64,000 nt of DNA from Glandiceps talaboti (lineage: Eukaryota; Hemichordata; Enteropneusta; Spengelidae), in NCBI RefSeq assembly GCF_964340395.1, contig NC_135551.1, positions 29,116,880-29,180,879 on the forward strand, read 5' to 3'. Made by a program: the position numbers and the translations under genes. The notes beneath the pieces are model-generated. The model was not told the DNA's origin, ran no database searches, and saw only the letters and a list, made by a program, of their open reading frames with translations. This document shows, piece by piece, positions 226 through 58,229 of the stretch; position 1 is the stretch's first letter, and the number at the start of each line of letters is the position of its first letter.

Positions 226-1981
226 ATAATCTCATCAGTAATTGTGAAGAAAAAATAATTAAACTTGCGAATCCCAGGTCAACCTTTTTGATCATTTGTA
301 CCAAAGGTCACACATCCTGGTAATTTGTTACAAACTAAAATACTAGTAGGCATCTTGGATTTAATTCATCCAATCAGCTTCTACGCTGAAAATTTATTAC
401 AGAGATTGCAGGCTGTGTGGAGAGAATGTTTGCTATGTTAATCATCAGGCTAGTTTCACTTTCCAAACTCTGTGACTATACTTCTTCAGTAAGTGTGAAC
501 AAGCAGCAAAGCAGCAAGTGGTGGTGAATGTGACTTGTCACCTTCTCAAGGCTTTGCCGCTCTATGTTCTTCAGAATTAGGAAGACCTGTAGTCTGTAGC
601 CTGGCAAGTGAAACTACAATCGTGCCTACTACAGAGCTAATACAGACTAAGAACACAACACAACACAACTTGATATATTCACTGATTGATAAATGAAATG
701 TATTTGTACCTTTCAGAGAGAGACGAAGAGGACTTGACAGACATTACTTCATTGACCTACAGCTGAATACACACAAGAGACAAAGTTATATTTTTTTAAA
801 TACTGGCAATTTTTTTACGGCAATAAACAATGCAAGTGTGATTACAAAACCAATGTATTAAGACTATGCCATGCTTAGCCAGCAGCATTCACATATTAAC
901 ATCTACAGCTGAATTAACTTAAATTTGTATAGCATCTAAACGTCACACTGCAGCTAAGTTGAAGAATTCCTTGCAATGTAGCTCTATTTTGTCAGATCTA
1001 AGGTGCAAAAAGTAACATTTACTCTTTAAAGGTTCCTGTGTGATATCTTAGTAAACTTTGCTCATCAAGAGTTACCTACATACTACCCAATATTTTTATA
1101 CTGTAAGAAGGGAATGTATCACGACAAGAGGCTGCTGTCCTGGGGAACTGGACATGTGTATGAAGAAGGTTCCTTTATATCAAATGTATTTACTTTGGTT
1201 GAATAAGAAAAATAACTCAATGATATCTGATAATACATTGCCGAATAGCATTCACATTTTATTCAACTGCCAAAGTGGGCAATTTGCAACTTGAAAACTT
1301 GTACTGTGGTGATTTTGTGATGAGAAGCATGGCAATTGAAAAAGTCGATATATAGGTAAACTGTGAAATGCAGTAGGGGATAAAGTTCCATGTTTTCCAC
1401 TACACGCATAGTGTATTACAGACTTTGGACACTATCATAAAATGACCCTACACAGTATCGTACAGTTTATGTAGTAGGGAGTATGGAATGCATTTGACAA
1501 GACCATGGAACTCGATGCTCTCTTATCTAATGGACCAAGTCATAATTATCTTGACTTTGTAGTCTTAGAAAGAATGATGGTGTAGAAGCCACCTTTGTAT
1601 AGATTTCTTTGTACATGTTTAACAGTTCACTAGAATATCAACTCCCCACAATCAAGGCATACAGCTCTTCTCTGGCAATGCAATTCAAATTTTGATCTCG
1701 GTCCAAAGCTGCTTATCCCCCGAAAGGAAGTGTTTCATTCCATGGCATACCATACCATAGAGTAATTCAAATTGTGTGTATTTATAGCATGGATGTTTAT
1801 TAGAAAGTCTGTTAACACACATACACAGACTTAAATGACAGACTGATAATTCATAAAATTATGAACATAAGCAAATTTGGGTATTAGATCACCTCCCAAA
1901 CCATTCAATTCAATTCAATTGAATGACTTTATTGTGTATATAAATGCAGAAATTTGTCTTTAGGCTCAAAATAAACAAATG

Positions 1982-2010
1982 GCATTACATTACATTACAT
2001 TACATTACAG
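1982..2010. repeat. (ATTAC)n pentanucleotide microsatellite
   Basis: About five uninterrupted ATTAC units, with no adjacent gene. Confidence 0.85.
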
Positions 2011-3453
2011 TACAAAGATTCCTAAGGTATGGTCCAATATCAAAAATAATGGCATGAAGGGTAACAGATCCTTGATGAGATAATCCACACTCCTTGCTTT
2101 CTGGTCCACACCAGTCCAAACAAAATGAAGCATGTCAATGGCCAATTACTACAGAAATAGAAGTAGATTTATTTGACAACAACACCCCCCCCCCCCCCTC
2201 CCCCTCCCCCAACAAGACTTTTGTAGCAGCCTGATTATATATGTGCATAGTGAACATAGTAGCCAGTATGTTAGATGCAGTTTGATTTACATAAAGTATT
2301 TTTAATATGTCAAGACTGCCGAGGTAGGTATGTAAGCTAACCCACCCATTGCCCTGGAATGGAAATCATTATTTTGTAAAATAAAAAGTGAAATACAAAT
2401 AGTTGTGTGTTTGTGTTTGTTCCCACCACACACTTGTGTCGCAGACTTTATTTGTTGGTTTGGTTTGTTGAATGGATGAGGTAGTGTCTGGAAAGTTCAC
2501 CTTGTTGCTTCAGTCAAATCACTCAAGAAAGTGGGAGAGTATATTGTGCTTAAATGATTGAAACTTATCTCTGAGATTAGCCTTATGTGTGAAAATGTGT
2601 GATTGCTTACTGACCATAATGCCTGTAAAGATGTCACCTGAGCACCACTTACAACATAGACAGTGGAGGGTCTATGCTTACAATAAGCTTTGCCTGTGAA
2701 GACGTCACCTGAGCACTGCTTTGCCAGTGGAGATGTCACCTGAATATGGCTTAAAATAAGCTTTGCCTGTCAGGATGTCATCTGAAACAAAAAGCTGTTC
2801 ATCTTGTGGCCTATTCTGAATGTACGGTATAGTGTCCGTGTGTGCGTGTGTGTGTAGCAATTATTGTCATTGAAAGAATGCATCAATAATTACATGGAAG
2901 AAATTTCACATTTAATCAAGTGAAATACAAAGTATTTTGACAGGGGTAGCCTGTCTACATTGGTGATAAAATAAGGGGAAAAGAGCCTTAACACCAACTA
3001 ATGAAAGTTAATGTCGAGGGTAGAAGTAGGGGAGTGGTTCAAGAGATGAAAATGTGATAGAGATGCTGAAAACCATGAAGTGTGGAAGACGGTCAACCAT
3101 GATTGCCAATGCATAATGGAGGCATGATAGTGAGAGAGAGTCTCTGGGGTAGGTAAAACAGTCAAGTATGCAAACAAACAAGCCTGCAAGACAATTGAAG
3201 ATCATGACTCCAAATAATAAGGATGTCAGGGAGGACAGGTTATTATACTAGTGGTTGCTTTACAATGTAATACTGTGTGGGATTGAAAGCTTTTCATTTC
3301 TCTACCAATTTTAACAACTCAATGTGGGTAGAGGTATATAATTATGATACAATCAGAATTGTTTTTCGCCTTTATTATGATAAATACACTGTAGACGCAT
3401 GTATACAGGTGGGCATGTATAAATACATCATATCAATATAATGTGAATATACG

Positions 3454-3604
3454 GCTCAGTTTCTTTATTTACCTTGATTTCTCTTGTCATTATTGTCTTG
3501 TTATTGTCATTTGTTTGTTATTAATTGTTCCAAGAGTAATAACTCCTGGAACTACAAAATTGAAAACAATAAATTAAGGAAATACAGGTAAAGAAACCGA
3601 GCTG
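3454..3604. mobile_element. Foldback (MITE-like) element, about 150 bp
   Basis: The left end GCTCAGTTTCTTTATTTACC is matched in inverted orientation by GGTAAAGAAACCGAGCT at the right end. Inner parts (TTGTTCCAAGAG...CTCCTGGAAC and TTATTGTC...AACAATAA) are also partly complementary. There is no coding capacity. A sequence of similar design, with TTTCTNTATNTACCT at one end and AGGTAAATACAGAAA at the other, occurs at about 56030-56200. Confidence 0.5.
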
Positions 3605-3639
3605 TTAATAATTCACAATATCAGATGTTAATTAGATTG

Positions 3640-3880
3640 ACTTGTATATATATGCATAAGTAAGCACATACATATACATCATATATACATAGTGATACAA
3701 TATAGTACACATACATACATACATACACACATACACATACATCATATAGACAGTGATAAAATATAGTATACATGCATACATACATACATACATACATACA
3801 TACACACACATACATCATATACACAGTGATACAATATAGTACACATACATACACACACAAACTTGGTATACATACATTAT
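3640..3880. repeat. ACAT/CATA-rich microsatellite with about 110-bp higher-order copies
   Basis: Runs of ACATACAT are separated by a repeated word (ATCATATA...CAGTGATA...AATATAGTA) that recurs about three times, so short runs and a longer unit are combined. No gene is apparent. Confidence 0.7.
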
Positions 3881-4507
3881 AAAATACAGTTTATATACAG
3901 TACATGTGTATGTGTTTATGTGCATGCATACACACTTAGCATTTATATTAGCAATGTCATGAATGTAGACAGGCTAATAGTATGGCGATTGCCTGGAGGG
4001 TCAGTCAGTATTATTCCTACAAGTAGCAAGGTATGAATGTCAACATATGTTTTTAATAGTAGATGATGTACATAATAATTAGTCGTCAGTTGAAAACTAA
4101 CATTTGACTTATTTGCACTTTTGTTCAAAATTACCATTAATTACTTTTAATAATCACATATTCCCCCCCCCCCCTTGCCAAAATGAACCAAATGAATGCA
4201 TCAAATTAAATTAAATGTACAAATACTTTCTATCTTAAGGATGGAGGGTTTGGTGGAAAAACATTTTAAGTATTAAAATAGTTCCAGAAATATGATTATG
4301 AAAGATATTATGTAAACAAAATTATATGATAATTGATATTACATGTGATTGCCATAGAAGATTAACATCATGTAGTTCATACACACGTCATAGAAAATTA
4401 GTCTAAAGTACATAGAATATAGTATACTGGTAGGGAAAAGAAAGCAGTTCATGATAATCTTAGAAAAAGACGCCAAATCTATAATTTCAGAGATGCAAAA
4501 GAGCTAC

Positions 4508-4579
4508 TGACCCCGACGTGATTTGAACACGCAACCTTCTGATCTGGAGTCAGACGCGCTGCCGTTGCGCCACGGAGTC
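4508..4579 (-). tRNA. tRNA-Trp (anticodon CCA)
   Basis: Read on the minus strand this is a 72-nt cloverleaf. The acceptor stem pairs GACTCCG with CGGGGTC (one G-U pair), the discriminator base is A, the D-arm contains GGCGCAACGG, the anticodon loop is CTCCAGA with anticodon CCA, and the T-loop word is GTTCAAATC. No intron is present. A T4 run (AAAA at about 4496-4499 on the plus strand) just past the 3' end would serve as the Pol III terminator. The internal A and B boxes look intact, so this is probably a working nuclear gene and not a SINE head. Confidence 0.93.
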
Positions 4580-4841
4580 ATTGCTGGGTGAAGAGGTTGA
4601 TTACTTAAATATAAAGTATAGAATGTGTATAATTTAGCCTTTCTTGGGTGCGTGATTTCTGTTCATTGATCGAAATTTTGGGATATATTTTTAGACATGT
4701 CAAATAAGAAAAACTAAATTTATTCATGCAATGCTGATAATGTAAATTCATATCGATAGCACGTATTACCACTAGAGGGCGTGAACTCGAGGAAATATAT
4801 TTCGAACACACAATGTATCCGACATTTTGATTCACGTTGTG

Positions 4842-6026
4842 ACGAGTATAAAGTTGGCGTCAGATTCAGATTCAGATTCAGCTAGCGTCATATTGAGCGT
4901 CAGATTCAGCGTCAGATAGCGTCAGATCCGAAGACACCCGACGGACTCAATGAAACCTGAAATAATACTGTTGAGACTACAGGGAAAGATTCCGCTTCAC
5001 AGCCTATTGATGGAAGTTGGATTGTCTCTGCTTGCACAATTTTTATTTGGGAAAAATATGTGAAATAGAGTTGAAATACTTACAACCGAGACATTGATAG
5101 ACGAGTATAAAGTTGGCGTCAGATTCAGATTCAGATTCAGCTAGCGTCATATTGAGCGTCAGATTCAGCGTCAGATAGCGTCAGATCCGAAGACACCCGA
5201 CGGACTCAATCAAACCTGAAATAATACTGTTGAGACTACAGGGAAAGATTCCGCTTCACAGCCTTTTGATGGAAGTTGGAATGTCTCTGCTTGCACAATT
5301 TTTATTTGGGAAAAATATGTGAAATAGAGTTGAAATACTTACAACCGAGACATTGATAGCCCCAAGTTCAGTCACTGTATGTTCGTTGGTTGATACGTTT
5401 TGCCAATAATGTACATGGTGTCAGTAAAAGCTAAGTTTACGTATACTAATATGTTGTCATTTTTAAAAATTTGAATTTAAAATTTAAAAATTGTGCAAGC
5501 AGAGACATTCCATCTTCCATCAAAACGTTGTGAAGCAGAATCTTTCCCTGTAGTCTCAACGGTATTATTTCAGGTTTGATTGAGTTCGTCGGGTGTCTTC
5601 GGATCTGAGGCTATCTGACGCTGAATCTGACGCTCAATATGACGCTAGCTGAATCTGAATCTGAATCTGACGCCAACTTTATACTCGTCATTGATAGCCC
5701 CAAGTTCAGTCACTGTATGTTCGTTGGTTGATACGTTTTGCCAATAATGTACATGGTGTCAGTAAAAGCTAAGTTTACGTATACTAATATGTTGTCATTT
5801 TTAAAAATTTGAATTTAAAATTTAAAAATTGTGCAAGCAGAGACATTCCATCTTCCATCAAAAGGTTGTGAAGCAGAATCTTTCCCTGTAGTCTCAACGG
5901 TATTATTTCAGGTTTGATTGAGTCCGTCGGGTGTCTTCGGATCTGAGGCTATCTGACGCTGAATCTGACGCTCAATATGACGCTAGCTGAATCTGAATCT
6001 GAATCTGACGCCAACTTTATACTCGT
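4842..6026. mobile_element. Outer copy of a 588-bp long-TIR transposon (Mutator-like by TSD), interrupted by a second copy
   Basis: The ends are ACGAGTATAAAG and CTTTATACTCGT with inverted terminal repeats of about 204 bp, and the insertion is flanked by CACGTTGTG on both sides (4833-4841 and 6027-6035), a 9-bp target duplication. Removing the inner copy (588 bp) and its 9-bp duplication leaves exactly 588 bp. The arms carry repeats of GCGTCAGATTCAG, as expected of subterminal transposase-binding sites. There is no coding region, so it is non-autonomous. Long TIRs plus a 9-bp duplication suggest the Mutator-like superfamily, but no transposase is present to confirm this. It ends 63 bp before the SF3A3 start codon. 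Confidence 0.93.
5101..5688. mobile_element. Inner copy of the same 588-bp transposon, inserted into its own sibling
   Basis: It begins ACGAGTATAAAG at 5101 and ends CTTTATACTCGT at 5688. CATTGATAG flanks it at 5092-5100 and 5689-5697 as a 9-bp target duplication. Its left and right arms and the central spacer (CCCCAAGTTCAGTCACTG...) match the outer copy with only scattered substitutions, in the same orientation, so both insertions look recent. Confidence 0.93.
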
Positions 6027-6089
6027 CACGTTGTGTTGTCGTTGCCATTTCTACTGCTGTTGTATCACTGATATTACAATCTCAAAAAT

Positions 6090-15113
<9,024 letters not shown>

Positions 15114-56200: not shown

Positions 56201-57026
56201 AAGTCATATTCTCCACATTACACTGTAATAATTGTAATAATGCTATAGGTACACACAATGTATTACTATTCAATTTCACAATATCCCCATCTGGTAATTT
56301 CCCCTTATTCCATATGCAATAAAGTTTCCCAAATTTCACTAACTGCATGGTCCCTGTCAATCCCCTTTTCATATTTCCCCTTTATTTCATGTGCAATGAA
56401 GTTTCACAAATTTTACTAACTGGTCCCTGTCAATCTGATAGAAAGAGAAAACAGTTTTTGATTTTTTAAATCCACACTTAAAAAATCAATTCTGCATTCA
56501 GGAAAATACATAGTCTAATATTTACTAACTAAAAGCATATCAAATCAAAATAAATGAAATCGGTAAAATTTGAGTGTATTTCTGTTGAAACTATAATTGC
56601 ATAATCTTCAGTGATTCAGAGAGTCGCCAACGTTTTGCACATTTCCTGAAATAATCCCCAAAGTAATATCATTCACAATGGAAATAAAATTGTTTTCAAG
56701 TGTCTATTAGTCCAGTCAATTTGAAAGTAGCTGGAAACTGTTGTCCATTCAACTGTAATTAGTTGATACCATTCAGTTCTTCTGTACACACATAATTGAT
56801 GTAAAAAAAAAACAGGTACAATTTCTTGTAATTGCGGTCACTCTTTCAATAATGAGTTTTTCACAACCAAAATGCATCAAGTGGCAAAGTAATGTTCATG
56901 CTCTGTTTGATACAATTGCACAGAAACCAATAAGAAATTGTAAATTATACATTTGCAGATTTCAAGATGATAATTTCTTGCTATATTTAGTCTTTTATTT
57001 ACAATCAAATCATCTAATTAACACAC

Positions 57027-58229
57027 TAGACATAGACACAGACACACAGACACACTAGACACAGACACACAGACACAGACACACTAGACACAGACACAGA
57101 CACACTAGACAGACACTGACACACTTACACAGACACACAGACACACTAGATAGACACACACACAGACACACTAGATACAGACACAGACACACTTACACAC
57201 ACAGACACAGAGACACACTAGACAGACACACTAGACACAGACACAGACACACTAGACACACTAGACACAGACACACTAGACACAGACAGACACACTTACA
57301 CAGACACAGACACACTAGACACAGACACACTAGACACAGACAGACAGACACACTAGACACAGACACACTAGACACACACTAGACAGACACACTAGACACA
57401 GACACACTAGACACAGACACAGACACAGACAGACACACTAGACACACAGACACACTAGACAGACACACTAGAGACACACTAGACAGACACAGACACAGAC
57501 ACACTAGACACAGACACAGACACAGACACTAGACACACAGACACACTAGACAGACACACTAGACACAGACACAGACACACTAGACACAGACACACTTACA
57601 CAGACACACAGACACACTAGATAGACACACACACAGACACACTAGATACAGACACACTAGAGACACACTAGACAGACACAGACACAGACACACTAGACAC
57701 AGACACAGACACAGACACACACAGACACACTAGATAGACACACACACAGACACACTAGACACAGACACAGACACAGACACACACAGACACACTAGATAGA
57801 CACACACACAGACACACTAGACAGACACACTAGAGACACACTAGACAGACACAGACACAGACACACTAGACACAGACACAGACACAGACACACACAGACA
57901 CACTAGATAGACACACACACAGACACACTAGACACAGACACAGACACAGACACACACAGACACACTAGATAGACACACACACAGACACACTAGACAGACA
58001 CACTAGAGACACACTAGACAGACACAGACACAGACACACTAGACACAGACACAGACACAGACACTAGACACACAGACACACTAGACAGACACACTAGACA
58101 CAGACACAGACACACTAGACACAGACACACTTACACAGACACACTAGACACAGACACACTTACACAGACACACTAGACACAGACACAGACATAGACACAC
58201 AAGACAGACACACACAGACACACAGACAC
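57027..58229. repeat. CACAGA/CACTAGACAC satellite, about 1.2 kb
   Basis: Mixed units of GACACA, GACACACTAGACA and GATAGACACACACACAGACA are arranged in longer duplicated blocks; for example the block with ACTAGATAGACACACACACA recurs at roughly 110-130-bp intervals after 57600. No coding role. Confidence 0.97.

Follow-up and report, generated by a model that had tools for sequence, protein, structure and literature searches.

Directly upstream of SF3A3, an essential splicing-factor gene, the stretch of DNA analysed here (the window; 64,000 nucleotides, C4:29116880-29180879) contains a 588-bp transposon inserted into another copy of itself, with each copy flanked by its own 9-bp target duplication. 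The outer insertion came first and the inner one second, because the outer duplication is intact and a word belonging to the outer unit, CATTGATAG, is duplicated around the inner copy. We consider it very probable that this is a non-autonomous transposon of Mutator/Foldback type, presumably moved by a Mutator-like (MULE) transposase, that settled near SF3A3 and was later entered by another element from its own young subfamily. Related copies are dispersed through the genome, and most of the 39 read have 9-bp duplications there as well. The nest illustrates cleanly an event of a kind already known; it does not amount to a new system, and nothing in it is categorically new: transposon self-insertion is described in PMC4744444, citing Jiang and Wessler 2001. 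Its value is as a record of recent activity of a Mutator/Foldback-type family in an animal genome, in which the succession of two insertions next to SF3A3 is dated.

Structure of the nested insertion

The features of the region, in window coordinates, are as follows.

4507..4580, minus strand: tRNA-Trp (CCA) gene, the neighbour upstream of the insertion, outside the element
4833..4841, plus strand: outer target duplication, left copy, CACGTTGTG, 9 bp
4842..5100, plus strand: outer copy, left part (unit positions 1-259), with the first CATTGATAG at its end
4842..5045, plus strand: left arm of the outer copy, about 204 nt, with period-12 repeats of GCGTCAGATTCA type at 4857-4927
5092..5100, plus strand: inner target duplication, left copy, CATTGATAG, 9 bp, equal to outer unit positions 251-259
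5101..5688, plus strand: inner copy, a complete 588-bp element in the same orientation as the outer one, arms at 5101-5304 and 5485-5688
5689..5697, plus strand: inner target duplication, right copy, CATTGATAG
5698..6026, plus strand: outer copy, right part (unit positions 260-588), right arm at 5823-6026
6027..6035, plus strand: outer target duplication, right copy, CACGTTGTG
6090..6185, plus strand: SF3A3 coding start with the first-exon peptide, from the match to human SF3A3, exon end approximate

The initial annotation had described a nest of two 588-bp copies with two 9-bp duplications, and every coordinate of that description holds on recheck. After subtraction of the inner copy and one 9-bp duplication the outer copy is 588 bp long, and 5 of the 588 positions distinguish the two copies; comparison of the arms assigns three private changes to the left arm of the outer copy and two to the right arm of the inner copy. 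The arms of about 204 nt are 95-98% complementary across the four arm pairings, and period-12 tandem repeats are present in all four. No stop-to-stop open reading frame of at least 110 aa lies within 4842-6026. Because both duplications read C...G, the window by itself would also permit duplications of 7 bp with G/C added to the ends; we rejected this reading on the evidence of the other genomic copies, which fix the duplication at 9 bp and the ends at ACGAGTAT..ATACTCGT.

The distance of 63 bp given earlier between the right end of the nest and the SF3A3 start codon is likewise correct, with the ATG at 6090 and the distance counted from the end of the element, the duplication included. The gene itself is identified by its first-exon peptide (E 2.3e-07 against human SF3A3) and by a later exon at 12345-12677 (E 8.2e-50). 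It looks unlikely that the insert lies within the leader of the translated SF3A3 mRNA, because its predicted folding energy as RNA is -825.8 kcal/mol, a figure without a shuffle control at such length.

A dispersed family with 9-bp target duplications

Searching the genome (590 Mb in 47 contigs) with the inner copy gave 475 candidate places. The best 40 of these, which were scored, comprise the copy in the window plus 39 more of 86-99% identity, some not full length, so that the family has at least 40 related copies in the genome. With no coding capacity and many similar short copies (40 places scored), it is MITE-like. Duplications were read from the flanks of all 39 other copies. For the dispersed non-autonomous family that the initial annotation had proposed, copies without 9-bp duplications or with other ends would have been a difficulty; the other copies in the same genome bear the proposal out, with a perfect 9-bp target duplication in 27 of the 39 and the termini ACGAGTAT..ATACTCGT in most. 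Among the remainder, two have 8-bp duplications, two have 9-bp duplications with one mismatch, seven have none and one is unreadable (N); the seven without a duplication speak against the Mutator/Foldback explanation. As a control, the left flank of one copy was paired with the right flank of another; of 1,722 such pairings only 3 matched across the 9 bp with no more than one mismatch. Two of the 39 copies (L031 and L032) belong to one segmental duplication, so the others represent 38 events at most; they are a single insertion present twice on C23, about 240 kb apart, inverted and about 93% alike over 2.6 kb, and read as an inverted segmental duplication. Positions 1 and 9 of the duplications mildly favour G or C (18/30 and 20/30; one-sided binomial P = 0.016 and 0.002, respectively, uncorrected for the nine positions tested).

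The exact terminus occurs 377 times in forward and 362 times in reverse orientation, compared with 0 and 0 for the control. This count is unusable as a copy number, because in 13 of 14 small regions it reflects short copies locked in another repeat. These copies (L080-L084 and L086-L093) share their flanks, are without a 9-bp duplication and measure 64-250 bp where both ends could be located; the repeat that encloses them occurs as 7.4-kb tandem units on C6 (L091, L092 and L094). Another family copy (L079) has an arm interrupted, at 923-3145, by a stretch with a 334-aa open reading frame that by eye resembles a LINE reverse transcriptase.

Both window copies fall into the youngest cluster of the family, together with L009-L013 and L015. 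Each differs from L009 at 3-4 of 588 positions, compared with the 5 positions at which they differ from each other. Since each is thus closer to L009 than to its partner, the inner copy is a second family member that need not derive from the outer copy. The insertion events are probably recent: the step from near identity to recent activity, made in the initial annotation, stands at the level of the family, given that both copies are in its youngest cluster, and descent of the inner copy from the outer one is not required. None of the paper titles listed in the literature searches names the family.

Other self-insertions

A second nest lies at L078 (C6:17210200-17220100). Here an outer copy at 1067-8966 is flanked by TCTCGTTTT (1058-8975 with the duplications included) and contains a 5,770-bp inner element at 3071-8840 that is flanked by TAGTATTTC and has arms longer than 204 nt. 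Going by the assembled sequence, this is a true nest and the second self-nest of the family. The same outer copy also holds an unrelated element of 1.5 kb (1237-2760), whose ends read TAGACTGTCGACAGTC.. and which has, by eye, CCTTTTGAT on both sides.

At a third place (L027 on C20, 1000-1816), two members, one of 599 bp and one of 191 bp, are adjacent, and one 9-bp word, CTTTTCATG, occurs in three copies at 1000, 1608 and 1808, as if one member had inserted exactly at the duplication of the other. Compared over the shared arm, the two members have 167 and 169 of 180 positions in common (93-94%), and the short member agrees with other family copies at 174 of 180; each is nearer to other copies than to its neighbour. 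Given this closer match elsewhere, the short member is not a tandem duplicate of the member beside it.

Because three arrangements fit (the window nest, L078 and L027), there is a hint of self-attraction: a transposase sitting on resident arms might direct insertions into a copy or onto its 9-bp duplication, so that the family would favour its own copies. We regard this as doubtful. By arithmetic, with all 475 candidates taken as insertions of 588 bp in 590 Mb, about 0.2 nests would be expected at random, and the excess over this figure is not a fair count, since such structures were what we looked for and the three cases include the starting finding itself. If the preference were real, the family would offer a natural setting in which to study target choice by MULE transposases.

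Proposed explanation and alternatives

MULEs have target duplications of 8-11 bp, typically 9 bp, and long terminal inverted repeats. Duplications of 9 bp flank both window copies, as they do most of the others, and the arms of the nest are long inverted repeats with the period-12 arrays, internal to the arm, that mark a Foldback element. The element has a non-coding middle between two inverted arms, each about 204 nt long and containing 12-bp repeats. In the explanation we prefer, a MULE-type transposase supplied from elsewhere would cut the target with a 9-bp stagger and insert the element by cut-and-paste. The first copy entered on the upstream side of SF3A3, 63 bp from the start codon, and a further member of the young subfamily then entered the first at unit positions 251-259 in the same orientation. 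The enzyme, encoded elsewhere in the genome, would move the element by binding its repeated arms.

The architecture has described counterparts. Muta1 of Aedes aegypti, a MULE and type 2 Foldback element, has arms of 145 bp with nine subterminal repeats of 12 bp, duplications of 8 or 9 bp and more than 300 non-autonomous derivatives (PMC5225508). The 588-bp family resembles it in arms that combine a terminal motif with subterminal tandem repeats of 12 bp, in 8- or 9-bp duplications without a clear target sequence and in non-coding derivatives that share the arms, of which Muta1 has hundreds; the likeness drawn here is one of architecture, and Muta1 differs in having a known transposase and demonstrated activity. 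Tm1, a Mutator/Foldback element of root-knot nematodes, likewise combines Foldback-like, repeat-bearing arms with mostly 9-bp duplications (8-10 bp in 45 of 53 complete elements) and MITE-like non-coding members (PMC3169594). Its asymmetric 7-bp terminal motifs and repeats of about 14 bp differ from the symmetric ACGAG..CTCGT termini and period of 12 seen here. Tandem arms and nested insertions are also described for plant MULEs (PMC3310237, PMC3903597). As in the plant elements with multiple tandem arms, there are more than two arms per structure, and nested insertion is among the origins listed by those authors; the plant elements have lost their inner duplications and some of the composites have amplified (PMC3310237), whereas in the nest described here both duplications are intact. 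No second copy of the composite was noticed among the best 40 of 475 places.

Membership in another Foldback-like group, such as the P superfamily, is unlikely. Galileo of Drosophila, which has a P-type transposase, shares the long, internally repetitive inverted arms (PMC3573991), and the MULE loci that we read yielded no transposase for the 588-bp family, which would suit such a placement. The duplications speak against it: those of Galileo are 7 bp long (PMC3573991), a length that does not fit the perfect 9-bp duplications of the 27 copies.

Two further alternatives concern the nest itself. It might have arisen by two tandem duplications of 259 bp and 338 bp inside one element, without insertion. 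Tandem Repeats Finder does report arrays of period 259 and 338, and internal arm repeats could favour slippage, as discussed for the plant tandem-arm MULEs (PMC3310237). Yet two events would be needed, with breakpoints exactly at the element ends and at one 9-bp word, whereas a single insertion suffices and would be expected to leave the 9-bp word, a feature shared by the rest of the family; we therefore consider tandem duplication very improbable. An assembly artefact is slightly less credible still. Such inverted and direct repeats make assembly difficult, and one family copy (L015) abuts an N gap, but the copies in the nest carry five differences and two unrelated 9-bp duplications, all in place, and a second nest with two duplications of its own exists at L078. 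Judged from the assembled sequence, the private differences and the two different duplications make an error at this place unlikely. Insertion of one family member into another remains the explanation that we adopt.

MULE loci in the genome

The profile of the MULE domain (PF10551) matches the genome 31 times, always above the cut-off. Thirty MULE loci were read to about 1.5 kb and five of them to 4-5 kb; none has the family terminus over these lengths, and for this reason a MULE transposase as the source of mobility is something we infer. The Mutator-like assignment made at the outset thus gains from duplication length and arm architecture, and these loci, over the lengths read, held no element combining the family terminus with a MULE transposase. 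For 20 of the 31 matches the nearest exact terminus, among the terminus places listed, is at least 38 kb away. This comparison used one hand-entered position per terminus cluster (100 places, omitting C5, which is without a MULE locus), and the other 11 matches are on contigs beyond the places listed. The longest paired-end element seen, the 5,770-bp element of L078, has no long open reading frame outside simple repeats. The 7.4-kb repeat at L094 was also considered as a candidate carrier; by eye its open reading frames resemble pieces of reverse transcriptase, not MULE.

Arrays of 15-bp units, of the type GGACAA(A/C)TGCCCCC or with a slightly variant period, occur at 9 of the 30 MULE loci (L048, L050, L053, L055, L059, L060, L062, L071 and L076). 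In two of the 30 (L062, 1361-2039, and L071, 1121-1844) MULE-domain sequence lies between inverted arrays of this type, so that the domain is flanked on both sides by inverted, tandem-repeated arms. Foldback-type arms thus accompany MULE sequence in this genome, and the two loci represent a different Foldback-type MULE family within it. No convincing 9-bp duplication was seen around the MULE-bearing foldback fragments L053, L055, L062 and L071.

Elsewhere in the window, positions 57021-58229 hold a 1.2-kb tandem array of ACACAG/ACACTAG type with strong strand asymmetry.
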